25,026 nt of DNA, from IMG/VR virus record IMGVR_UViG_3300025889_000887, positions 1 to 25,026 of that record; one strand, written 5' to 3'. Shown here one piece after another: positions 5,730 through 24,098 of the stretch. The translations under genes were made by a program, and so were the position numbers. The notes under the pieces are model-generated. The model saw only the letters and a program-made list of their open reading frames with translations, was not told the origin of the DNA and searched no databases. Position 1 is the first letter of the stretch. Every line of letters begins with the position of its first letter. This DNA is from a virus.

Positions 5730-5942
5730 TTATCTCGGAAAATTTAGGAAAACTTGAGATATGATACCCCCAAGAGCAGCGGAGAATCCGGAGAGCATCA
5801 TCAATGTTTTCCAGCCACCTTGTGCTTCTGAGAGAGTAAGAAGAATTTTACGGGTGTCGTTTCGGACGGCACTCAGTTCTTTCTCAAGAAGAACAATCCT
5901 AGCCTCCATATTACCCAGTTCTCTGTCTGTGAAATTAGCCAT
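5730..5942 (-). CDS. Holin-like small membrane protein (XhlA-type architecture)
   Basis: A 70-residue protein with a charged N-terminal helix of coiled-coil character (about residues 8-40, NMEARIVLLEKELSAVRND). One hydrophobic segment follows (about residues 45-66, LMMLSGFSAALGGIISQVFL) and then a very short tail. A coiled coil followed by a single C-terminal membrane span is the layout of XhlA/haemolysin-type accessory holins and of some phage membrane anchors. It starts 2 bases after the oxygenase gene and ends 6 bases before the nozzle-like gene. No separate endolysin gene is seen beside it; the only lysozyme-like sequence in the window is at the end of the portal protein. Function as a holin is inference from topology. 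Confidence 0.6.
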   Translation of the reverse strand: MANFTDRELGNMEARIVLLEKELSAVRNDTRKILLTLSEAQGGWKTLMMLSGFSAALGGIISQVFLNFPR

Positions 5943-5944
5943 TT

Positions 5945-7093
5945 TTAGTCACTCTCTTTTATACCAAACCAACATACAAGAGTATAACGATTACCCGATG
6001 TAATCATGTTTACTCTGTGCATGACAGAGCCGCCTCTAAAAAGAATAAGTTCCCCCGTATGTCCTTTTATCCCTAAGCCAAGATGTGGAAATACAAGCTC
6101 ACCTCCTTCATAATCTTCATTAAGATAAACTATAGCAGCAAAATGCCTGTTAGGAAATTCTCGGTGCTCACCTAGATCATCATGTACTAACATCTCATCC
6201 CCTTTGCCCCACCTTACAGTATGTGGGTTTAATATTGATAGGTCGAGACCAGTTTTTTGCTGGGCGAATTGTAATAGTCTTTCCTCAATAACTCCTTTAT
6301 TTGCCTCAATGGTTGACCAGCACATCTTGTTTCTCCAAAGATCAGAAGTGTCATCAGGGTTTTCAGGAACCCAGTTTCTGATTAAATAAGAACATTCGTC
6401 TGTGTCTAAGAAAGATTCTTTAGAGTGAATATCGTTTTCTTCTAGTATCTTGAAACTATCGTTATAGTCTATAACAGGAGAACACCGGACAAACCTACGT
6501 GCTTTTTTAAAATAATCTTTTGTCCACTCATCTGCTTTGTCACGTTTGTCTGTCAATACTTCTCGTTCTTTGCGGACACTGTCCGGTTCACACATTTTAT
6601 AAATCTTGGTATTTTCGATGGTTCCGGTGTCCACAGGAATAACACGGGCAACGGGGGTACCTTTTGGGATTGTGGTTTTTCCTTTGTTAATGACCCTGAT
6701 TGTCAGAAACCATGGGTACGATAACCAATCAGTCTCGATGACTGCGGACATCGTTTGAATATCTGTGTTGTCTGTGTTAGGAACTGGCATAACCATGAGA
6801 TTAATGTTCTCATCAGTGCGCCAGACATATCCGGGGTCTAGAGTGAATGTCCCTATTCCGAAGTGGCTCTTTGCACCGTGACCTTCTAGGACCGTGAGAT
6901 TGTCTTTGTAGACACCCCCGTCCCATTCGACAGTGATTGATTCATTTAGTACCAAGTCCCATCCAAGGGTATTCGCACAAGTAAGGGGTGTGCATTTATA
7001 AGAGTGAGGGGAAAACCAATCTCTGGTTTTAGTGGCAGGGACTATATCAACTGATTTGACTGAATCAGATATCACCGGGTAAATCTTTATCAT
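5945..7093 (-). CDS. DUF6065-like domain fused to 2OG-Fe(II) oxygenase (prolyl 4-hydroxylase-like)
   Basis: A 382-residue two-part protein. The N-terminal ~180 residues resemble the DUF6065 family: a CTPLTCANTLGWDL segment, VEWDGG, a FGIGTFTL strand and an ETDWLSYPW segment. The C-terminal ~130 residues show the double-stranded beta-helix signature of 2-oxoglutarate/Fe(II) dioxygenases. The HxD iron ligands are H304 and D306 (MLVHDD), the distal iron ligand is H359 (GGSVMHRV) and the 2OG-binding Arg is R369 (GNRYTLVCWF). The stretch AAIVYLNEDYEGGELVFP is typical of prolyl 4-hydroxylase-like members. The start overlaps the methyltransferase stop as ATGA, so the two genes are translationally coupled. 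The substrate is unknown; the polyproline protein three genes upstream is an attractive candidate (inference). Confidence 0.85.
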   Translation of the reverse strand: MIKIYPVISDSVKSVDIVPATKTRDWFSPHSYKCTPLTCANTLGWDLVLNESITVEWDGGVYKDNLTVLEGHGAKSHFGIGTFTLDPGYVWRTDENINLMVMPVPNTDNTDIQTMSAVIETDWLSYPWFLTIRVINKGKTTIPKGTPVARVIPVDTGTIENTKIYKMCEPDSVRKEREVLTDKRDKADEWTKDYFKKARRFVRCSPVIDYNDSFKILEENDIHSKESFLDTDECSYLIRNWVPENPDDTSDLWRNKMCWSTIEANKGVIEERLLQFAQQKTGLDLSILNPHTVRWGKGDEMLVHDDLGEHREFPNRHFAAIVYLNEDYEGGELVFPHLGLGIKGHTGELILFRGGSVMHRVNMITSGNRYTLVCWFGIKESD

Positions 7094-7863
7094 ACTAGTT
7101 TTACAACGTATCTATTACCAAAACCCACAGGGTCTGATATGAGGGGGATATCTAAAAGAATTTCATATTCTGAGGGGTTTAAGGTGGTCTCAGGATTCGT
7201 ACCTTCAACAAGAGACTTTGATGCGATAAGAACTTCTTTTCCCTCGTCTCGTAAAAATCTACCCAGATCCAAATTCTTTTGAGCCCACCCACCATAAAAA
7301 ATACGGGACATGATATAGGTATCGTAAGACATATCAATAGTTTCTATGGAGGCCACCTCTGAAAAAAATCTTACGTCATAATTAAGTAAGACGAAATTAC
7401 AAGCTGCGATCACTTGGGATTCGTCCAGACCTTCGTAGACAGCATTAACACTCCCCAGTTTGTGTGTGATGATAGTTGAGGTCCCAGTCCCACAGCCTAT
7501 GTCGCATACCCTCTTATCTTGCCAGTAATTCGAGTAGTCCAGTGGGGAGGTTGACCCCCGGCCTTTTAACCAACTGTATTTAATAATTTCTCCGTTGGTC
7601 CATTCCTCATTAGGATCAGTAAAAGGAGGGGTCGGCTCCATGTCCTTATCCCAACCAATATAGGAAAAATCTCTGATAATGCTGGGAAGAATAGGTCTTC
7701 CCTGAACACACCTGATTCTATTATAGTTATTATAGAGTGCATCTAAAACAGACTCTCGATTAACGGTCTCTGTTTCAAAGTAAGAAGACACCAGTACTTT
7801 CCAATCAGGGAGAATAGTGTTCTCCATGACTACAGCTAGTTTTTCAGCGTATGATACGGGCAT
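7090..7863 (-). CDS. SAM-dependent methyltransferase
   Basis: A 257-residue protein with a Rossmann-type SAM-binding motif I at residues 119-130 (VCDIGCGTGTST). An acidic motif II region follows (VYEGLDES) and later a hydrophobic strand (VLIASKSL), as expected for class I methyltransferases. The ~115 residues before the fold show no recognised domain and may determine substrate choice. The start codon shares bases with the stop of the sulfotransferase-like gene (TAATG), and the end overlaps the oxygenase gene (ATGA). This places it in a coupled tailoring cassette. The target (protein, peptide, glycan or small molecule) cannot be read from sequence. There is no DNA-methylase motif such as DPPY or PCQ, so a DNA target is less likely. 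Confidence 0.8.
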   Translation of the reverse strand: MPVSYAEKLAVVMENTILPDWKVLVSSYFETETVNRESVLDALYNNYNRIRCVQGRPILPSIIRDFSYIGWDKDMEPTPPFTDPNEEWTNGEIIKYSWLKGRGSTSPLDYSNYWQDKRVCDIGCGTGTSTIITHKLGSVNAVYEGLDESQVIAACNFVLLNYDVRFFSEVASIETIDMSYDTYIMSRIFYGGWAQKNLDLGRFLRDEGKEVLIASKSLVEGTNPETTLNPSEYEILLDIPLISDPVGFGNRYVVKLV

Positions 7864-8504
7864 TACTCAAACACTCCTGTGTAATTAAGAGATTTTAATA
7901 TACTCTTGTCTACGTTGTTCTTTATGATATGCGACATGTCTGGTGTCATATTATACGACATACGTGGGTCCAGAGCCATTCTTTTTCTTTCAGGGGTAAA
8001 TTCAAAAGAACCAGAAACTTTTATAGGTAAGCCGTCTGGATCTATTCTGGTATCAAGATTCTTCAGTGTTGTGACGGGGTCACTGATAAGATCCCGGTAT
8101 TTTACAAATTTAATAACTGAGGAAAAAGGATCTGATAACCAGAAGTGGAAAAATCTGTTGTAGAGATCACAGATGTTTTCCAAACTGTATGTCTTATACT
8201 CTTCGACAATATCGGGTGTATCCCTGAGTGTCCGGCTTGTGGCGCATCTGATCTTGGTGTGTCCTTTTTCGTAATGGACTCTGTAGTGATCACCAAGTTC
8301 CCATGATTGAGAGATGATGCTGTCGATCCATTTGTACGGGGACTTATGAATAATTACCCTGTCCATGGATTTAATCTTGTCTGGGATGTCTGTCCTGACA
8401 AACTCGTGCTTGTACTCGGTATGCGTATTATCAGGATCAAGAATGGTTTGAAGATATGTGGTACCTGATCTATAAAGACCACAGACTAGGGTAGACCTTT
8501 CCAT
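7863..8504 (-). CDS. Sulfotransferase-like protein
   Basis: A 213-residue protein when started at the ATG at 8504. An earlier GTG at 8537 is possible but has a poorer context, while a GGGAT stretch lies a few bases before the ATG. A P-loop-like 5'-phosphosulfate binding motif is at residues 9-19 (GLYRSGTTYLQ). A second conserved element, HKSPYKWIDS (53-62), corresponds to the 3'-phosphate-binding region of PAPS-dependent sulfotransferases, and KYRDLISDP (135-143) matches another conserved strand. The family transfers sulfate from PAPS to hydroxyl or amine groups of sugars, tyrosine or small molecules. It is short for the family but both nucleotide-binding elements are present. It overlaps the Hint gene by 19 bases and is TAATG-coupled to the methyltransferase. 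Confidence 0.75.
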   Translation of the reverse strand: MERSTLVCGLYRSGTTYLQTILDPDNTHTEYKHEFVRTDIPDKIKSMDRVIIHKSPYKWIDSIISQSWELGDHYRVHYEKGHTKIRCATSRTLRDTPDIVEEYKTYSLENICDLYNRFFHFWLSDPFSSVIKFVKYRDLISDPVTTLKNLDTRIDPDGLPIKVSGSFEFTPERKRMALDPRMSYNMTPDMSHIIKNNVDKSILKSLNYTGVFE

Positions 8505-9160
8505 TGAATATCCCGAATGTCCTCTGTTCTGCACCACTGTGAAATCCCTACAAATCCATCTACTATATATCCACCACCAGATTTTAGTAACAGGCCATGG
8601 ATAATTTCTTCGGGGTCTTGTTCAGAATCCCATGTTGCCTCGGTCTTTTCCCAGCCATCGATGGTGGCGAATTCGTACTGTTTCCCGTATAAGAGAGGCA
8701 TCGTTGCTTTACCAATGTGTTCGTAGTCATAGGGGCTTTCACCGGGGAAGTTTTCCTCGGAAGATTCGGCATAGCCACGGTCTTCCAATAGCCACCAGTT
8801 ATAATTATAGACACCCCAGCGTTCAACCCCGTTGTCGTCTCTGATCCACATGTCATGGTCATCACTGAAGCGTAAGGGTTTACTCTGTCTTTTACGATGT
8901 AGGCTCATCATCCGTCGTCCTTTGGATACAGGGACAGGTTTGTTCTCCAGAACCTCAACAGGTTTGCCAGACATCGAGATTACGTAATCTCCGACTTCGA
9001 CTTCGTTGATCTGTTTCCATGAAAGATCACCCATCAATATTAGAGTATCGCTGGCAAAACAGGTCATTGCTGGTGGCGGGGGTGGAGGTGGAGGAGGTGG
9101 CGGGGGTGGTGGTGGTGGCGGTGGAGTTAGTAGTCCGCCTACTAGAATAATATCAGGCAT
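8486..9160 (-). CDS. Polyproline-Hint domain protein
   Basis: A 224-residue protein. Residues 1-12 are short and hydrophobic, residues 13-30 are 18 consecutive prolines, and residue 34 is a Cys that begins a Hint (Hedgehog/intein) domain. Visible Hint blocks are block A (C34-FASDTLILMGDLSWKQI, then VEVGDYVIS), a block B-like SDDHDMW (99-105, His102) and a terminal block resembling YIVDGFVGIS (198-207). Where an intein would end in His-Asn followed by Cys/Ser/Thr, the residues here are Gly-Ile-Ser. Full splicing therefore looks unlikely, while the N-terminal acyl shift or cleavage at Cys34 remains possible. The gene lies 3 bases after a collar-type fibre and overlaps the sulfotransferase-like gene. 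What the domain releases or attaches is unknown; a tail-associated role is inferred from position. Confidence 0.8.
   Translation of the reverse strand: MPDIILVGGLLTPPPPPPPPPPPPPPPPPPAMTCFASDTLILMGDLSWKQINEVEVGDYVISMSGKPVEVLENKPVPVSKGRRMMSLHRKRQSKPLRFSDDHDMWIRDDNGVERWGVYNYNWWLLEDRGYAESSEENFPGESPYDYEHIGKATMPLLYGKQYEFATIDGWEKTEATWDSEQDPEEIIHGLLLKSGGGYIVDGFVGISQWCRTEDIRDIQWKGLP
9071..9124. repeat. 18-codon polyproline tract
   Basis: Read on the minus strand these 54 bases are 18 consecutive Pro codons using CCA, CCG, CCC and CCT in mixture. The mixed codons mean the protein run is maintained without a simple single-trinucleotide expansion. Runs this long strongly stall ribosomes and need EF-P, so the tract may also slow translation of the Hint protein. 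Confidence 0.95.
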
Positions 9161-9163
9161 GGG

Positions 9164-10363
9164 TTATGTCTTAATGATATAATTGAGAATAATTGTTGGC
9201 TGTACGTTGTTATGCGCCTCGTCATTAGCCCCTACTAGTGGAATATATGCCGGATTTTGTGCAAGACCGGATGATGATACACCGCCCTGACCACCGTTGC
9301 TGGTTTGTCTCTGGTAAGTGGCTGCTGTTGGTAATTCCCCGGGTGTTAGTGTATGGGTCTCAGCGCCGCCAGATGCACCAAGGGTATCGCCATTAACACC
9401 ACCAGATTGACCTGTGAGACGATCAGCAGAAGTACCACCCATGTCATCCTGACCAGCAACAAGGCGACCTCTAAGATCGGGGACGTTGAATGTTGTTGCC
9501 CCGTCACCAACACCATACGTGGTCCCGATGGCTGCAAACAGGGTTGCATAGGTTGATCTGCTGATTGCCTGACCATAAGAAAGGAGCCAGCCAGAAGGGG
9601 CCGTTGATCCTGCATAAGGCATAACAGAACCCGCTGGAACGGAAGGAGTAAAGCTTAGGTTTCCGCTGCCGTCTGTTTGAAGGACATCTCCAGATGAACC
9701 ATCTGCGGCAGGGAGCGAAAAGGTAACATTGGCTGAAACAGAGGTTGGTGCCTGTAGGGCGATGTAGTTTGAACTATCAGCATCAGCAAATCTTACATCA
9801 CTCTGGGCGTTCATGGTGATATTGCTGGAGAATGTTGAAGAACCAGATACAGCAATGCCTCCTCCAATGGAGACAGTTCCCGAAATTGCCACAGGAACTT
9901 TAATGTCAATCAAAGAGGTTCCCACGGATACATTAACCACGTTTGATGTGGATCGGATGCCGGGTGTTTCGATGTCACGTACTGAGACGCCATCACATAC
10001 AACACCGATACTCTGGCCTTGTGGGATAATTTGTCCAGAGCCCGTGGCGGTCTTCATGTTAACGGTGAAAGAACCAGATGTGGAATTACGAACATCGTAG
10101 CCTTTTGAAAGGGCAGGGATAAGGACATTGACGTTGCTGGTCAAGGTTCCCGAGATATCTAGGAATGCACTACGTGCCTGATCAGAAGCACCGTTCGACT
10201 GCGTCAGAGTAACATCAACAGATGATACGGTGATCGTGGTGTAGGCTGCGATAGAATCATCGACAAGATCAATGACGTTATCGTTAAGGACAGTGCCCCA
10301 TGTGTTTTCGTTTTGACCGGGGATCTGTTTTTCTAGTCTGATTCTGGATGTGTATGATGACAT
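9164..10363 (-). CDS. Tail fibre with phage collar domain
   Basis: A 399-residue protein. The N-terminal segment (KQIPGQNENTWGTVLNDNV) is the usual start of a marine phage fibre family. The middle is beta-rich, Ser/Thr/Val-rich sequence (about 60-240). Residues ~244-308 form a phage tail collar domain: SVMPYAGSTAPSGWLL, then an FNVPDLRGR signature followed by a Gly-rich loop. The C-terminus (NVQPTIILNYIIKT) is the typical collar-family end. Such proteins form the distal receptor-binding fibre. It starts 4 bases after the adaptor gene and is followed within 3 bases by the polyproline-Hint gene, so the Hint cassette sits directly behind a fibre. Confidence 0.85.
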   Translation of the reverse strand: MSSYTSRIRLEKQIPGQNENTWGTVLNDNVIDLVDDSIAAYTTITVSSVDVTLTQSNGASDQARSAFLDISGTLTSNVNVLIPALSKGYDVRNSTSGSFTVNMKTATGSGQIIPQGQSIGVVCDGVSVRDIETPGIRSTSNVVNVSVGTSLIDIKVPVAISGTVSIGGGIAVSGSSTFSSNITMNAQSDVRFADADSSNYIALQAPTSVSANVTFSLPAADGSSGDVLQTDGSGNLSFTPSVPAGSVMPYAGSTAPSGWLLSYGQAISRSTYATLFAAIGTTYGVGDGATTFNVPDLRGRLVAGQDDMGGTSADRLTGQSGGVNGDTLGASGGAETHTLTPGELPTAATYQRQTSNGGQGGVSSSGLAQNPAYIPLVGANDEAHNNVQPTIILNYIIKT

Positions 10364-10367
10364 GGTG

Positions 10368-11027
10368 TTAGTTACTTCCTGTTAAAGTGTTAGGGCCACC
10401 GGCTGGACTTGCTGGCATGGCCATGCTGTCCCTACGGGATCTACGTGCCTCGTTGTTCAGACCCTCAAGTTCTCGTTGATAAAAACTTTCCCACATGGTT
10501 GCGGCGGTTGGGTTCTTCATGAATAAGGTTGCCTCAACCATGGAACCGTAGTATAGGGCGTTTGAGCAGTACTGTGTGAAATAGTTTGTTTCCTGTGTTG
10601 ACGAAGCTAAAGCGGTTGGCTCGACCACATATGAAATTTCAACGGGATATGCTGATGCAGGAGCCGGTGCGATCAAGAGTTCGTTACCGTAGTTTGCATA
10701 ATATCTGGGTTCCCCTACCGAGGTACGGTCTGGCCAGTAATCATTTAGATATTCTTTGGTCTTCATGACCAGATTAATTCGGGAGCCGTTGCTGGTGATC
10801 GTCAAGTTTTTTACAATCAATGCGTTCGGTGGCTTCTGGTAAACAGGGGTCGAGACGACAAAGTTTGTTGTGGCAAAACTTGTCAAACCTAGTAAGTCTA
10901 CATCACGTGTCAGTCTATTCTCTGTACGTGAGATAAAATTAGGGATAGAGTCAACAAACTCGGAACCTGTGTTTTCCGCAGTTTCTTGAATCTGGGTTAC
11001 AAGGGATGAATAAGTTGTTACAGGCAT
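10368..11027 (-). CDS. Head-tail adaptor protein (SU10 adaptor-like)
   Basis: A 219-residue protein. The N-terminus (SSLVTQIQETAENTGSEFVDSIPNFISRTENRLTRD) is a helical pair followed by DLLGLTS and a beta region. The family is of the kind described for the phage SU10 adaptor and related proteins of podovirus-like phages, which sit between the portal and the tail. Further features are YWPDRTSVGEPRYYANYG and a later helical segment (QYCSNALYYGSMVEATLFM). The C-terminus is Arg/Ser-rich and disordered. The neighbours are a repeat-rich protein upstream and the collar fibre downstream. The adaptor assignment is from sequence pattern; a T7 gp11-like role is an alternative name for the same position. 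Confidence 0.65.
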   Translation of the reverse strand: MPVTTYSSLVTQIQETAENTGSEFVDSIPNFISRTENRLTRDVDLLGLTSFATTNFVVSTPVYQKPPNALIVKNLTITSNGSRINLVMKTKEYLNDYWPDRTSVGEPRYYANYGNELLIAPAPASAYPVEISYVVEPTALASSTQETNYFTQYCSNALYYGSMVEATLFMKNPTAATMWESFYQRELEGLNNEARRSRRDSMAMPASPAGGPNTLTGSN

Positions 11028-11078
11028 ACGATGATCCTATCATATATTATTAATATGAGCCAATTAGCTCTTGCAGCA

Positions 11079-11573
11079 CTAGGCAGCTATAGATTCCCAT
11101 GTAGTAGATACGTCAGAAGTCAGGGTCCATGTGGTTGATGTCTGGGAAACCGTGGTCCAGCTAGTGGTTACATCAGGTACAGGGAACCAGAAGAAAATCT
11201 TACCAACTTCAAATGTGCCTGTAACTCCGGTAACGGGGATATCTGCGTTAATACTAAACCCGGCGGTGCCAACTTCAAATGTACCTGCGACCCCTGATAC
11301 ATTATGGACATGATCAATCGAAGGTGTGACAGTGCCTACTGAGAATGTGCCCGTGATCCCGGTGACAGAGATATTTGAGTCTGTGGTAAAACTGGGTGTG
11401 CCTAGTTCAAATGTGGCAGAGGCACCTGATACATTGAGTTTTATTTCTGCGCCAGCAACAACAGAACCTAGTTGAAAGGTTGCTGATACACCGGTGACCG
11501 GAACCGCTACATCAATCGTTCTGATCGAAGATGAGAAAGGTATCTGGGAAAAGGGGGCGGTGGAAAAAGTCAT
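11079..11573 (-). CDS. Repeat-rich structural protein with five GTF/ATF beta repeats
   Basis: A 164-residue protein. After a short N-terminus, five related units of roughly 24 residues follow: VPVTGVSATFQLGS, LNVSGASATFELGT, ISVTGITGTFSVGT, HNVSGVAGTFEVGT and IPVTGVTGTFEVGK. The C-terminus carries a Trp/Thr/Ser motif repeated three times (TSWTTVSQTSTTW, then STTWESI). Such alternating V-x-V-x-G and GTF-x-VG patterns suggest stacked beta strands or a beta-solenoid, as in virion decoration or fibre proteins. It lies between the long repeat fibre (9-base gap) and the adaptor. The 51 bases before the adaptor gene are the widest gap in this module. Function is unknown. Confidence 0.7.
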   Translation of the reverse strand: MTFSTAPFSQIPFSSSIRTIDVAVPVTGVSATFQLGSVVAGAEIKLNVSGASATFELGTPSFTTDSNISVTGITGTFSVGTVTPSIDHVHNVSGVAGTFEVGTAGFSINADIPVTGVTGTFEVGKIFFWFPVPDVTTSWTTVSQTSTTWTLTSDVSTTWESIAA

Positions 11574-11582
11574 GGTGGGATC

Positions 11583-13196
11583 TTACGCCCCACTAAAATT
11601 ATTACGGGTACACTTTAGGGTGAATGAGAAGTTTCTGTCTGTTGCCGCAACCCCGGTTAGTTTGAATGCGAGAGCGTTACCCACGGAAACTATGTTGTTG
11701 CCTGTGGCTGTTGTAATTGCTTGTGTTGTACCGACTGCCAAGGCATTCAGACCTGTGACAGTGGTCTCTGTACCGGCGGCGCTGGTTGCAATAACAACAG
11801 AGGCCACGATTGCCCCGGCTGACAGTTTTCTTGAAAACGTATTTACTGTGAAAGTAAAGGGGGAATCGAGCACAAGAAATACTGGTGTGAATCCCGAATC
11901 AAGTTCGTCCCCGTATTGACCAGAGATTGCAAAAACTACATCTGTGTCAATTGAGGTGGCAACAATGTTTGTGGCAGAGAGAGCCACGGTATGGATATTT
12001 GTGGTTGCAGTAATGGTTGCAGCAATAATGTTCGTGGCCGACAGGTCTGGGGTATGAATGTTCGACGTTGCCGTTATTGTTGCTGCAATAAAGTTTGTCA
12101 CAGAGAGTAACGGCGTATGGATTGAGGTCGCTGTCACGCTACCTGCGGTGATGTTAGTCGCAGAGAGGGCGGGGGTATGTATCTTTGTTGTGGCCGTGAT
12201 TGTTGCCGCTAGGATATTTGTGGCGCTCAAAGCCGGAGTGTGAATGTTAGATGTGGCAGTGATCGTCGCAGCATTAAAGTTCGTCACAGATAAGGCTGGT
12301 GTGTGGATCGAGGTAGCTGTAACCGTACCTGCTACGATGTTTGTTGCTGATAATGCTGCTGTATGAATCTTTGTTGATGCAAAGATATTAGTTGCTGAGA
12401 CGTTTGTGACCGAGATCGCAGGAGTGTGGATCTTGGACGTTGCTGTGATTGTCGCAGCATTAAAGTTCGTCACAGATAGGGATGGCGTATGAATCGAGGT
12501 AGCTGTAACCGTACCTGCGATGATATTAGTTGCAGAGAGGACTGGGGTATGGATCTTTGTAGACGCAAAGATATTTGTGGCTGAGACGTTTGTGACCGAG
12601 ATCGCAGGGGTATGGATCTTGGACGTTGCTGTGATTGTCGCAGCGATGAAGTCCGTCACGGAGAGTGACGGGGTATGGATCGATGTGGCTGTGACAGTAC
12701 CTGCGATGATATTAGTCGCAGAGAGGACTGGGGTATGGATCTTTGTAGACGCAAAGATATTTGTGGCTGAGACATTTGTGACCGAGATTGCAGGAGTATG
12801 AATCTTGGACGTTGCAGTTACCGTGGCACCGGTGATATTTGTTGCTGAGACAGTCCCAGCAATACCAAGGTTACCAGAGGCATCTAGGTAGACAGATTTT
12901 CCGGCGGGATATCCACAGAAGACAACCTTGGTCCCTGCTGCCAGATTGACCACAGACCCACTGTTCGAGGAAGCCAAGATAGTGTCACGTGAGAGTACGG
13001 TGCCTGATGCGGTATAGGTACCGAGGCCCACTTCCCAGTCACCAGAGCCACTGTCTGAGATTACATAGTATGTGGTATTGGCATTACCAATTGCAGAAAA
13101 AGTATCAAAGCCCGTATACGAACCACTGAGCGTAACAGAGCCCGTTCCTGTGGTTGTCGTATCTTGCTTTACTCTGTCTTTGACAACGAGAGCCAT
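11583..13196 (-). CDS. Tail-fibre-like protein with 14 HTP repeats
   Basis: A 537-residue protein with three parts. Residues 1-~115 match a recurrent phage fibre N-terminal module (RVKQDTTTTGTGSVTLSG, GDWEVGLGTYTASG, LSRDTILASSNSGS). Residues 130-~416 consist of 14 copies of an IHTPxLSxTNxxAxTxTAT unit of about 20 residues. Within this, three 62-residue blocks (130-191, 192-253, 254-315) are nearly identical. Residues ~417-537 are a non-repetitive C-terminal domain (QYGDELDSGFTPVFLVLDS). The regular small-hydrophobic/Thr periodicity suggests a beta-helical or solenoid shaft. The layout of anchor, repetitive shaft and tip is that of a fibre or adhesin. The repeats should allow length changes by recombination. 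Confidence 0.75.
   Translation of the reverse strand: MALVVKDRVKQDTTTTGTGSVTLSGSYTGFDTFSAIGNANTTYYVISDSGSGDWEVGLGTYTASGTVLSRDTILASSNSGSVVNLAAGTKVVFCGYPAGKSVYLDASGNLGIAGTVSATNITGATVTATSKIHTPAISVTNVSATNIFASTKIHTPVLSATNIIAGTVTATSIHTPSLSVTDFIAATITATSKIHTPAISVTNVSATNIFASTKIHTPVLSATNIIAGTVTATSIHTPSLSVTNFNAATITATSKIHTPAISVTNVSATNIFASTKIHTAALSATNIVAGTVTATSIHTPALSVTNFNAATITATSNIHTPALSATNILAATITATTKIHTPALSATNITAGSVTATSIHTPLLSVTNFIAATITATSNIHTPDLSATNIIAATITATTNIHTVALSATNIVATSIDTDVVFAISGQYGDELDSGFTPVFLVLDSPFTFTVNTFSRKLSAGAIVASVVIATSAAGTETTVTGLNALAVGTTQAITTATGNNIVSVGNALAFKLTGVAATDRNFSFTLKCTRNNFSGA
11948..12809. repeat. Nested tandem repeats in fibre gene (186-bp higher order)
   Basis: The ~60-bp unit coding the HTP repeat fills this region. 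A higher-order period of exactly 186 bp is visible: GCTGAGACGTTTGTGACCGAG starts at 12394 and 12580, and a two-base variant starts at 12766. Three higher-order copies span about 12252-12809, followed by more diverged single units towards 11948. Confidence 0.9.
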
Positions 13197-20582: not shown

Positions 20583-23500
20583 TTACTCCACCAGTAAGGT
20601 ACCTAGATCTTTTGGGGGAACCTCATAATCTTTTTCCCATCTTTGCATAATATCACCGTTTGCGTTGTAGATATCGTAAAATGTTCCTGTTCGTTCCCCG
20701 TCTTCACCAAGTCTTTCTGAGATTTCAATTTTGACTGCTCGGTCTTCTAAAGGTGCAACCATATTGTATGCTAAGAGTCTTCTTTTTAACATGCCCGGTA
20801 GAAATTTTCCACCTGCCCTAAAATTTCGTGTGAACTGGAGGAGGTTATCCCTATTATAATCCTCAGTACCAATATTATCTGACTCATCTAGAAACAGGCT
20901 AACATCGTCCCAGCCCGAAGCCTCTCGGAAATTATAGATAGTATCAATCACTGCTGCTTGAGCTTCTTCATTATAAGCTTTTAAGGGTTTTCCATTATAT
21001 TCTTGATCTTTAACTTCATTATAAAATTGTAAGGCAACGGCTTCCGCAAAGGCTTTCTTATCATTATTGTAGTCTGCCAAATACAGAGCATCCGGATCAT
21101 CAATATCACCTTTTCTGGCACCGGAGATATCAGTTTTCTCCTCATCAATGTTGCCCTTGGCATCCAAGACAATAGTAACACTATCGATTTCAGGAACAAC
21201 ACCGTAAGCTAGAGTGAATTCGTTGGCTATTTTATCCCAATGATCGTAATCGCCCTCACGGCCTCCAAGACCTTCCATAAATGTAGTTATTGGGTGCGTA
21301 TATAAATGTTGTGGACGGCCCCCTAGAATCTGGGATGTCGTGGGTTCTTCTACTTCTTCTGACGTAGTACTCTGAGGTGCCGTGGGCTTTACTTCTGGTA
21401 GACTCTGCATAGCCTCGAACATGCTTGCATCGGTGGGAGACAGGGGCTTTACTTCTGGCAGACTCTGCATAGCCTTGAACATGCTTGCGTCGGTGGGAGA
21501 CAGGGGCTCTACTTCTGGTACTTTTAACCCTGATACATTAATATCCGGGGTTTCAGAGAACTGTGATTTCTTAGTGTTCTGAATATCTTCGTACATACTC
21601 ATGTTGTTTCGATATGCTGCTGCTTCCGCCATGGCACGGGCTTCGTCGGGGTAAATATCAGAGCCGGTACCTAGCTGTTCAGGATCGTAGCTATTGATCA
21701 AGGCAATGACATCGTCAAAGGTTACCGTGCCTCCGGGTTTATACCCTTTGATTTCTGCGGCTCCGCCGTCGGCAAATCCTTTGGTCTCTTGTGATAAGTT
21801 AATGTCTCGCATCTTGCCAAGTCCTTCCAAAAGGAATTTCTGGAGCATGATGTCCTTTTTGTTCTCGGCTTCCTTGTTTCGGATTGTGTTGACACCGATG
21901 TCTTTTGCTGCGTCGATGTCCTGACCACGGCGGCGGATGTCGAGTTCCTGTTTCTTCAGGGAGAGGTCGGCCATCTCTCTGGCGTTGTCCTGATCTAAGC
22001 TCTTTTCCTTTAGCTCAAGACTTCTGGACTCTAGGGCTAGTTGCTGCTGTTCCAGACTCTGGTACTGACCGAGCTGCTGGTTAGCATTCAGGATCTGTTG
22101 AGCGGCCTCGGCCATGATCTCGGGCATGACATCTGGGTTTTGTGCGACACCGGCTTCATTCATCAGACCACTCATGGTCTCCTGATACTGCATCATCATA
22201 TGATCCCTGATGGCGGCTTGTAGGATCGGACCGATGCTTTGAAGAATCTTGTTCTGGCCAAGGGTGGGGTCTTGCAAGAATGATGTGAAGACTCGGATGT
22301 ATGCCTGATGATCCTGACCGGGGAAGGCAGAGATCGGGAGACCCTTTGATGCCGCCAGAATATCAGAGACAGGATCTTGTTCCTGAGGTTCCTTTTCGGC
22401 GGATAGGAAACGTGATGGTTCCCGTACACCGGCGGCTGTGAGCAAGGACCTGTGTACTTCTCGCATGTCATAGGTGCCGGGGGTTGACTGTGCTGAAATC
22501 TGGAGAAGTAGCTGGGCCTGTGCCAGACGATGAGCCTGTGAGGGAATGTTAGGGTCAGAGACCGGGATGATATCGACACGTCCGTCGAAGTCAGAACGGG
22601 TGACAGGGAGTTCACGGCCCGGAATAGGGATCATCATCTGCTCATCTGGGAGGAACTCGTAGTTTAGCCGGGCCAAAATCCGGAGTTCATCTTTCTGACT
22701 CTTGTGTAGGCGCTTGTGAATGGCCGAGAAGAGCTTTGCTGAAGCCTCGATAAGAGCCAAGGTCGTACCCACGGGTCCGTAGTTCGATGCATCAGATACC
22801 ACAGCGTCCGTGGAGTCTGCGAATTTTTGACCGGCTTGCGTGATAAAGCCCAGAAGCTGGAACAGGGTCTGGGAAGGCTCCTTGTAAGGGAGTGGGACAA
22901 TGGCCTTGTTCAGGTCCATACCTGTTGCTTCGACTTCCTTGAACTCGCCGGGGGCGATGGGATCATCACCGCCGACAATCCTGATGCCACGGGCCTTGAA
23001 GCCGCCGGGTAGATTGGCAAACTGGCCAGCATCTAGGAGGGAACGCATTGCCAGAGTGGCAGACATGGTCATGTTACCGAGGAAGTGAATCAGGCCGAGA
23101 CCGTAGAAGCCGAAGCCGGGGACGTACTTGTAGTGAGTGAAGTACATCTTCTTCTCACGGGTTGGATCGTTTTCGTTCCAGTTGCGTCGGATGCCGAGGA
23201 CCTGACCAGAGTCGTTTTCAACGGTGACAATATAAGGTGATGGGAATTCGTCATCGTCGAGTTCGAGGTACAGGTGCTGTTCTAGCAGGGTGTACTGCTT
23301 GTCGTGCTCGGCGTTGAATTCGATGCCCATGATTGAGTTGATTGTCTGGCTCATGGTCGATGGCTGGAAGTTTCCGGGCTCTGAGAGATCGATGTCACGA
23401 TACATCCCGGACATGATCTGCTTCTGGAGTTCGTGGGGGGTCATGTAAATGACGTGGGTGTATCGGTCAGCCCGGCGTAGGTCCGTGGCGTTGTACGAGA

Positions 23501-24098
23501 CATAGAACTGGTCAACGGGGACGAACTCGGAGACAGGGCGTTCCGAGGCGGGGTCATAGTAGATTTTCTTGAATGCCGAGCCTACAAGTGGGAGATGGAA
23601 GAGCATACGCTCGAATTCGTCAAAGTATTCTGGCATTACTTCGGTGAGCTGGAAGTTCATGAATGACTGGACACGTTCGGACTGGTCTTCTTTTTCAGCA
23701 TTGGATTTGCCGATGATCTGGGCTTTAACAGGACCCTGTGGTGGGAAGAGTTCCTCGGAAGCCTTTGATTGGAACTTTACGGCGCTCTCGATCAGTAGGG
23801 GATGTACGGCTGTGCAGGCACCCTCGAAAGGCTCAGAGGTTGTGTTTAACTTGAGACCAAGGAGTTCGAAGCCTTTCTCGAACATGCTTTCCCATTCAGC
23901 CCGGGATTCTTTGTCTGACGTGTAAGAGTCCATGACAATGCTTCCGATTCTTTCGATCTCGGATTCATCAAGGTATTCTTCAGCGAGATTGTCCGAGAAA
24001 AAAATCTCGGGGGCTGGCTCAAAAGGAATAGCGTCTAGATCCATTTCGTCTGGGAGAATAAAATCTAGGATGTTAATGTTGTCGTTAGGGAGTGCCAT
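20583..24098 (-). CDS. Portal protein with C-terminal GH24 lysozyme-like domain
   Basis: A 1171-residue protein, far longer than the usual portal (P22 gp1 is 725). Residues ~30-660 are portal-like: AVKFQSKASEELFPPQGPV, then DEFERMLFHLPLVGSAFKK, VPVDQFYVSYNATDLRRADR and a helical stem region with DSTDAVVSDASNYGPVGTT. Residues ~665-765 are a Gln/Glu-rich helical barrel segment. FADGGAA (~773), then a linker with two 20-residue repeats (~860-905) lead to a region (~930-1115) like glycoside hydrolase 24. It has Glu942 in FMEGLGG, Thr962 in FTLAYGVV, a VIDTIYNF helix and the RAGGKFLPGMLKRR signature (1094-1107). About 55 residues follow. Catalytic competence is not certain, because the Glu-to-Thr spacing is 5 longer than in T4 lysozyme. 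Confidence 0.85.
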   Translation of the reverse strand: MALPNDNINILDFILPDEMDLDAIPFEPAPEIFFSDNLAEEYLDESEIERIGSIVMDSYTSDKESRAEWESMFEKGFELLGLKLNTTSEPFEGACTAVHPLLIESAVKFQSKASEELFPPQGPVKAQIIGKSNAEKEDQSERVQSFMNFQLTEVMPEYFDEFERMLFHLPLVGSAFKKIYYDPASERPVSEFVPVDQFYVSYNATDLRRADRYTHVIYMTPHELQKQIMSGMYRDIDLSEPGNFQPSTMSQTINSIMGIEFNAEHDKQYTLLEQHLYLELDDDEFPSPYIVTVENDSGQVLGIRRNWNENDPTREKKMYFTHYKYVPGFGFYGLGLIHFLGNMTMSATLAMRSLLDAGQFANLPGGFKARGIRIVGGDDPIAPGEFKEVEATGMDLNKAIVPLPYKEPSQTLFQLLGFITQAGQKFADSTDAVVSDASNYGPVGTTLALIEASAKLFSAIHKRLHKSQKDELRILARLNYEFLPDEQMMIPIPGRELPVTRSDFDGRVDIIPVSDPNIPSQAHRLAQAQLLLQISAQSTPGTYDMREVHRSLLTAAGVREPSRFLSAEKEPQEQDPVSDILAASKGLPISAFPGQDHQAYIRVFTSFLQDPTLGQNKILQSIGPILQAAIRDHMMMQYQETMSGLMNEAGVAQNPDVMPEIMAEAAQQILNANQQLGQYQSLEQQQLALESRSLELKEKSLDQDNAREMADLSLKKQELDIRRRGQDIDAAKDIGVNTIRNKEAENKKDIMLQKFLLEGLGKMRDINLSQETKGFADGGAAEIKGYKPGGTVTFDDVIALINSYDPEQLGTGSDIYPDEARAMAEAAAYRNNMSMYEDIQNTKKSQFSETPDINVSGLKVPEVEPLSPTDASMFKAMQSLPEVKPLSPTDASMFEAMQSLPEVKPTAPQSTTSEEVEEPTTSQILGGRPQHLYTHPITTFMEGLGGREGDYDHWDKIANEFTLAYGVVPEIDSVTIVLDAKGNIDEEKTDISGARKGDIDDPDALYLADYNNDKKAFAEAVALQFYNEVKDQEYNGKPLKAYNEEAQAAVIDTIYNFREASGWDDVSLFLDESDNIGTEDYNRDNLLQFTRNFRAGGKFLPGMLKRRLLAYNMVAPLEDRAVKIEISERLGEDGERTGTFYDIYNANGDIMQRWEKDYEVPPKDLGTLLVE
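21384..21520. repeat. 60-bp tandem repeat in portal linker
   Basis: Two near-identical 60-bp units (21384-21443 and 21444-21503) and the first ~17 bases of a third encode a 20-residue repeat (PEVKPLSPTDASMFEAMQSL). It is a Pro/Ser-rich linker between the portal barrel and the lysozyme-like region. Confidence 0.95.

Follow-up and report, generated by a model that had tools for sequence, protein, structure and literature searches.

On the minus strand of the window, by which we mean the whole 25,026-base virus record analysed here, positions 8486–9160 hold an ORF of 224 residues, laid out as 12 N-terminal residues, a run of 18 prolines (residues 13–30), A31-M32-T33, C34 and a Hint domain. The first-pass annotation had placed the ORF correctly, its strand (minus) being absent there; its observation that Cys34 follows the 18 prolines by three residues was borne out, and the C-terminal block that it had read, YIVDGFVGIS, is present at residues 198–207, followed by a 17-residue tail. 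The N-terminal segment (MPDIILVGGLLT; 9125–9160), a putative anchor, is delimited by its conservation with mostly silent codon changes; the polyproline tract (9071–9124) by translation and the alignment of relatives; the Hint domain (residues 34–207; 8540–9061) by AlphaFold2, structure comparison and alignment; and the tail (QWCRTEDIRDIQWKGLP; 8489–8539) by ORF translation. The ORF belongs to a marine phage, whose nearest named phages by terminase include Pelagibacter phage HTVC027P, phage DSL-LC04 and Roseobacter phage CRP-902 (37–39% identity), with a 53–56% match between their capsid proteins and that of the window.

The flanking genes lie on the same strand. Directly upstream is a tail collar fibre gene (9164–10363; Pfam Collar, E 3.9e-24; PHROG tail families). 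On the other side are a sulfotransferase-like gene (7863–8504, start ATG at 8504 with an alternative GTG at 8537; Pfam Sulfotransfer_3, 28.3 bits against a cut-off of 27), conserved beside the Hint gene, a methyltransferase-like gene (7090–7863; weak sub-cut-off Pfam matches) and a gene joining DUF6065 to a prolyl-hydroxylase-like 2OG-Fe(II) oxygenase (5945–7093; Pfam and PDB sequence matches). The oxygenase is assigned to Pfam family PF13640. Its eight PDB sequence matches are weak (E up to 0.1, best E 6e-4) and are all prolyl or PKHD hydroxylases; its predicted model (mean pLDDT 32) was kept out of the fold searches.

The polyproline–Hint protein or part of it was found in 13 IMG/VR loci, with ten genome-contig relatives standing outside the counts. 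In nine of the 13, namely those with a fragment long enough to include a collar gene that can be recognised, the Hint gene comes immediately after the collar fibre gene, and the sulfotransferase-like, methyltransferase-like and DUF6065–2OG genes come after the Hint gene in the 13 loci within the reach of each fragment, the sulfotransferase match being split in two pieces in L010. A methyltransferase-like homologue with 32% identity to that of the window also adjoins the Hint gene in the distant locus L057. The site beside the collar fibre gene, together with fused relatives in other phages, suggests by analogy a tail (virion) location for the protein. In L004, L009 and L010 the match to the collar fibre ends near residue 239 (compare positions 9164–9645 of the window) and the adjacent Hint gene stays, as if the fibre tips had been swapped.

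Conservation of the polyproline rod and N-terminal segment

Twelve of the 13 loci entered the scripted analysis, and 11 span the proline tract. The first-pass annotation had proposed comparing the length of the proline run among homologues, and this comparison gave 18 prolines in four loci, 19 in one, 20 in three and 23 in three. L002 and L003 equal the window over the polyproline–Hint protein and other loci are also duplicates, so that the independent sequences number nearer six. By contrast with such runs, the longest in the 15 other genes of the window is 2. The proline codons of the tract are mixed (CCA, CCT, CCG and CCC), and relatives differ from one another in as many as 16 of the 18 third positions (seven sequences, all four proline codons); loss of a proline within the run is impossible by the definition of a run. 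An origin in a simple DNA or codon repeat is ruled out by the mixed codons and silent divergence, the latter indicating that the run is old and has been kept.

The N-terminal segment behaves similarly. Among seven sequences, residues 1–12 differ by one residue in one relative and by up to seven third positions; ten of the 11 tract-spanning loci contain the segment complete, L005 starting at residue 8, and variation is confined to residue 10, which is Q in L012 and K in the partial sequence of L005. In the distant relative L057, 54% identical where it aligns, the run counts 21 prolines and the start is M-x-IIxLxGG-like by eye. As read from these codon comparisons, the N-terminal segment and the rod are under purifying selection, and the polyproline makes better sense as the conserved rod of a protein from the tail locus than as an extein that is there incidentally.

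Translation from the internal ATG at M32 is unlikely, since this ATG is missing in L012 and L057 and codons 1–12 change almost only silently. No clear ribosome-binding site for the Hint gene was found in the window, and in the loci read the gene starts 3–6 bases past the collar stop, which together make coupled translation likely. Long proline runs are expected to stall ribosomes without EF-P; a search of two longer contigs for a phage EF-P gene gave no EFP_N match in either.

Hint fold and catalytic residues

The Pfam family Hom_end_hint (PF05203) matches the N-terminal part of the Hint domain with an E-value of 4e-6 and a score of 27.4 bits, under the curated cut-off of 32.1; the fold match is the decisive evidence of identity. 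An AlphaFold2 model built from a 14-sequence alignment had a mean pLDDT of 73.7; values exceeded 80 over most of the Hint core and were poor at residues 127–153. Foldseek returned 45 PDB matches at E ≤ 0.001, the best being BIL2 (4.2e-8), and every one of the 50 PDB matches listed is a Hint, intein or intein-endonuclease structure. Structure comparison (VIA) gave Z 17.5 against Tetrahymena BIL2 (6y75; rmsd 2.2, 144 residues aligned), and the same comparison gave Z 14.4 against a clostridial BIL domain (2lwy; rmsd 2.1, 130 aligned) and Z 13.8 against the Hedgehog autoprocessing domain (1at0; rmsd 2.5, 132 aligned). Comparing a predicted structure with Hint folds had been proposed as a check on the domain assignment, and the model matches both BIL2 and Hedgehog.

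In many fold-aligned rows residue 34 of the model corresponds to position 1 and residue 207 to the terminal residue (Asn) of the intein. The domain has the residues of the Hint superfamily, namely Cys34 at position 1 and the block B motif (S/T)xxH as S99-D-D-H102. The places of the penultimate His, the terminal Asn and the +1 Cys/Ser/Thr of an intein are occupied by Ile206-Ser207-Gln208; the replacement of these residues, which the first-pass annotation had noticed, is therefore real. BIL domains of type A, defined in the part of PMC4031507 seen by a C-terminal His-Asn, differ from the phage domain in the same way, as it has I206-S207 instead. Type B is described there as lacking similarity to intein block G and as cleaving uncoupled from splicing; the block G residues are absent from the phage domain in the alignment. 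The two BIL domains are among the closest solved folds, and the title of the BIL2 entry names a C-terminal Asn (N143A) where the phage protein has Ser207.

With the Hedgehog Hog domain the phage protein shares the Hint fold, the position-1 Cys, (S/T)xxH and the lack of splicing. Hedgehog/Hog proteins carry a sterol- or adduct-recognition region beyond the Hint domain (PMC2362128, seen in part), whereas only 17 residues follow S207 here, too short a tail for a sterol-recognition region, and the part before the Cys is only 33 residues long. The Hedgehog-type reading of the first-pass annotation holds for the fold, Cys34, (S/T)xxH and the loss of the splicing residues, with the qualification that a sterol-recognition-like region is absent. 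By its residues and predicted fold, the domain is Hedgehog-like and would not be competent to splice.

Hint domains in other phages

The polyproline–Hint protein is a member of a loose group of Hint caps that end phage fibres and stalks, for which we used the working name 'phage tail-fibre Hint caps': C-terminal Hint domains that are encoded in or beside a tail-fibre gene and lack the splicing residues. An alignment of 21 rows reduced to 18 distinct phage Hint domains, as L080a, L080b and L101 repeat L102a, L102b and L103a. From the 28 loci L026–L053 the alignment took L026, L028, L031 and L041; L027 is JWF again, L029, L030, L032–L034 and L042 are close kin of those used, and the remainder are inteins or Hint domains of other proteins, some with His-Asn. 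Cys and (S/T)xxH are kept in 18 of 18 and His-Asn plus a nucleophile in none, the C-terminal block of L041 being misaligned and by eye YIVNGYGTTS. The C-terminal block that had been called degenerate is thus typical of the group and not a private degeneration.

A pattern of polyproline followed by Cys-Phe found 28 stretches, comprising ten of the known family, three in new Hint proteins (L057, L077 and L080) and 15 without a Hint domain. Because Cys-Phe was built into this pattern and into the domain-cutting script, the conservation of the Cys is partly by construction; that of (S/T)xxH is not. The residue preceding the Cys is variable in the aligned domains (T, S, G, C, R or P), and for many pairs among the 18 identity is below one third. 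The operon of the collagen–Hint genes also encodes a Hint-like paralogue (3255–4205 in L102 and 3344–4282 in L103), detected by a home-made profile with a weak, small-database E-value, in which the Cys and the block B His are both missing; loss is thus possible, and this makes retention elsewhere informative.

Several Hint domains of the group stand at the end of a tail fibre, a collagen-like stalk or a proline-rich linker: in L041 and L042 a protein of roughly 1,820 residues ends in a PPPP-containing linker and a Hint domain, and in Roseobacter phage DSS3P8 the domain follows a 30-residue low-complexity leader. The Hom_end-associated Hint family proteins of Achromobacter phages JWF and 2-1 share the Hint subtype (tblastn about 28% identity, 85% coverage) and the lack of His-Asn; they are also alike in having the Hint domain at the C-terminal end of a tail-fibre-like protein and a possible protein-modifying enzyme nearby. 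They differ in that the domain is fused to a long fibre via a Cys-rich linker (CNCDCNC), whereas the window encodes a separate polyproline protein, and in that the neighbouring enzyme is a radical SAM enzyme. The best named relative, an uncharacterized protein of Providencia phage PSTNGR1 (31% identity, E 1e-12), is also the best viral fold match and lacks His-Asn, but has 317 residues, another N-terminal part and no polyproline. The collagen-like stalk and Hint proteins of L102 and L103 share a proline-rich stalk, a Cys-Phe Hint cap without splicing residues and a downstream 2OG oxygenase of family PF13640; they differ in their Gly-Pro-Pro type repeats (one stalk having eight prolines in a row), in having two or three tandem genes and in belonging, by their remaining genes, to another phage group.

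L077, which retains His-Asn and stands outside the 18, encodes on its plus strand (5873–12004) a phage protein of roughly 2,044 residues in which the Hint domain lies between two long proline tracts; it is a splicing-type Hint domain between proline rods. In L028–L034, a small phage protein ending CPFCCFTPDTLILMGDG...FYANHVLVY or FYANGILVY is another Hint protein without splicing residues.

Since annotated Hint proteins of phages already exist, the kind itself is known; what is new, as far as our searches show, is the stand-alone form with a polyproline rod and a conserved enzyme cassette. In the parts seen of PMC5259590, PMC5526547 and PMC3556154, the term 'Hint domain' refers in phages to an intein within a terminase or enzyme gene. 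Splicing-dead Hint domains ending phage fibres are present in database annotations, and in the literature searched, as far as its text was available, we found no functional account of such caps nor one of tail hydroxylation in phages.

Proposed thioester formation and competing readings

We lean somewhat towards the reading that the protein would be a tail-associated anchor and rod of 18–23 prolines bearing a non-splicing, Hedgehog-like Hint cap, with a thioester formed at Thr33-Cys34 and resolved by an outside nucleophile. In Hedgehog, the N-S acyl shift is performed by Cys258, and both this shift and cleavage require the threonine and histidine of the TXXH motif (T326 and H329; PMC9163320, seen in part). 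As the residues for Hedgehog cleavage are kept and those for splicing are not, thioester formation followed by an outside nucleophile is the expected chemistry, and by this analogy the protein can probably make the Thr33-Cys34 thioester. The Hint fold would strain the Thr33-Cys34 bond, which Cys34, aided by Ser99 and His102, would attack to give the thioester; with the terminal Asn and the following nucleophile both missing, the reaction would halt at that stage until water, or a thiol, amine or hydroxyl of a virion or cell-surface partner, cleaved the thioester, with release of the Hint cap or transfer of the proline rod to the partner as the outcome. We infer this cleavage or transfer, and likewise the acceptor. 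Against thioester formation, an N-extein of 33 residues would make the cleaved product an odd peptide.

The main rival is a catalytically idle Hint fold serving as a structural or binding cap, that is, a globular, aromatic-rich tip on a polyproline stalk that would bind a receptor or partner, with Cys34 and His102 kept for folding or metal binding; we regard this as possible, though on the less probable side. The aromatic stretch at residues 108–126 is highly conserved, with 12 of 19 positions invariant against 8 of 12 in block B (six polyproline-family sequences); conservation at roughly the level of block B would also fit a binding role. Moreover, the C-terminal chemistry is gone from all relatives in the group and the relatives are terminal domains of fibres. 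An idle cap accounts less well for the retention of Cys with (S/T)xxH in every distinct domain despite the low identity of many pairs, and for the single Hint-like paralogue without the Cys being also without the His.

An intein or type A BIL in decay after losing the ability to splice would agree with the top Pfam match, an intein-type Hint family, and with the missing His-Asn, but selection maintains the ORF together with the rod and with blocks B and F, the absence of His-Asn is common to the whole group and only a 17-residue tail is present, with no endonuclease domain, all of which makes decay very unlikely. We give still less credence to a leaky collar stop by which the collar gene and the Hint ORF would yield one protein, the fibre being the real extein. 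Fused forms do occur in other phages and, among the window and ten loci, readthrough would be in frame in eight of 11, with one codon from the collar stop to the Hint start (TAA CCC ATG) in seven and two in L004; the 5-nt spacer of L009, L010 and L011, however, is out of frame and refutes readthrough for these three, where the Hint protein is intact and 79–80% identical.

If the thioester step of the preferred reading operates, it would give phages an intrinsic way of cutting fibre parts or attaching them covalently, in a manner comparable to the maturation of Hedgehog. The polyproline–Hint protein is a convenient test case, being small and stand-alone with a putative scissile bond three residues past a uniform proline rod, and the nearby prolyl-hydroxylase-like enzyme raises a second, directly testable question. 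An extension that we consider improbable is that phage enzymes modify the stalk before the Hint Cys and that the Hint domain then turns the modified stalk into an activated thioester, through which it would be joined covalently to a partner on the virion or host surface. The prolyl-hydroxylase-like 2OG enzyme would act on the polyproline or Gly-Pro-Pro stalk, perhaps with sulfation or methylation to follow, and in the Achromobacter phages the radical SAM enzyme would act near the Cys-rich linker.

The idea of stalk proline hydroxylation is invited by the PF13640 2OG oxygenase found about 2.3 kb beyond the last Hint gene in both collagen–Hint contigs. Of 12 Hint-gene records, at least four contain PF13640, at about 2.3 kb or less from a Hint gene in three and about 27 kb away in the fourth; this count, made after the idea arose, is a lower bound, as the search missed L009's own enzyme (76% identical), and two of the three near cases are mutually related. 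Counting against modification are 2OG genes beside tail genes without a proline tract: HTVC027P (capsid 53%, terminase 39%) has an annotated 2OG oxygenase gene between the collar gene and a gp3885 homologue, with neither polyproline nor Hint in the six genes read around it, and in S-CAM8 a 2OG cluster adjoins a tail fibre without the tract.

Two further genes of the window were noted. The portal protein (20583–24098) has 1,171 residues, of which three named relatives match only about residues 29–647, the rest being a C-terminal extension. The protein encoded at 11583–13196 has internal repeats (SATNI...TVTATSIHTP) with overlapping repeat matches in relatives.
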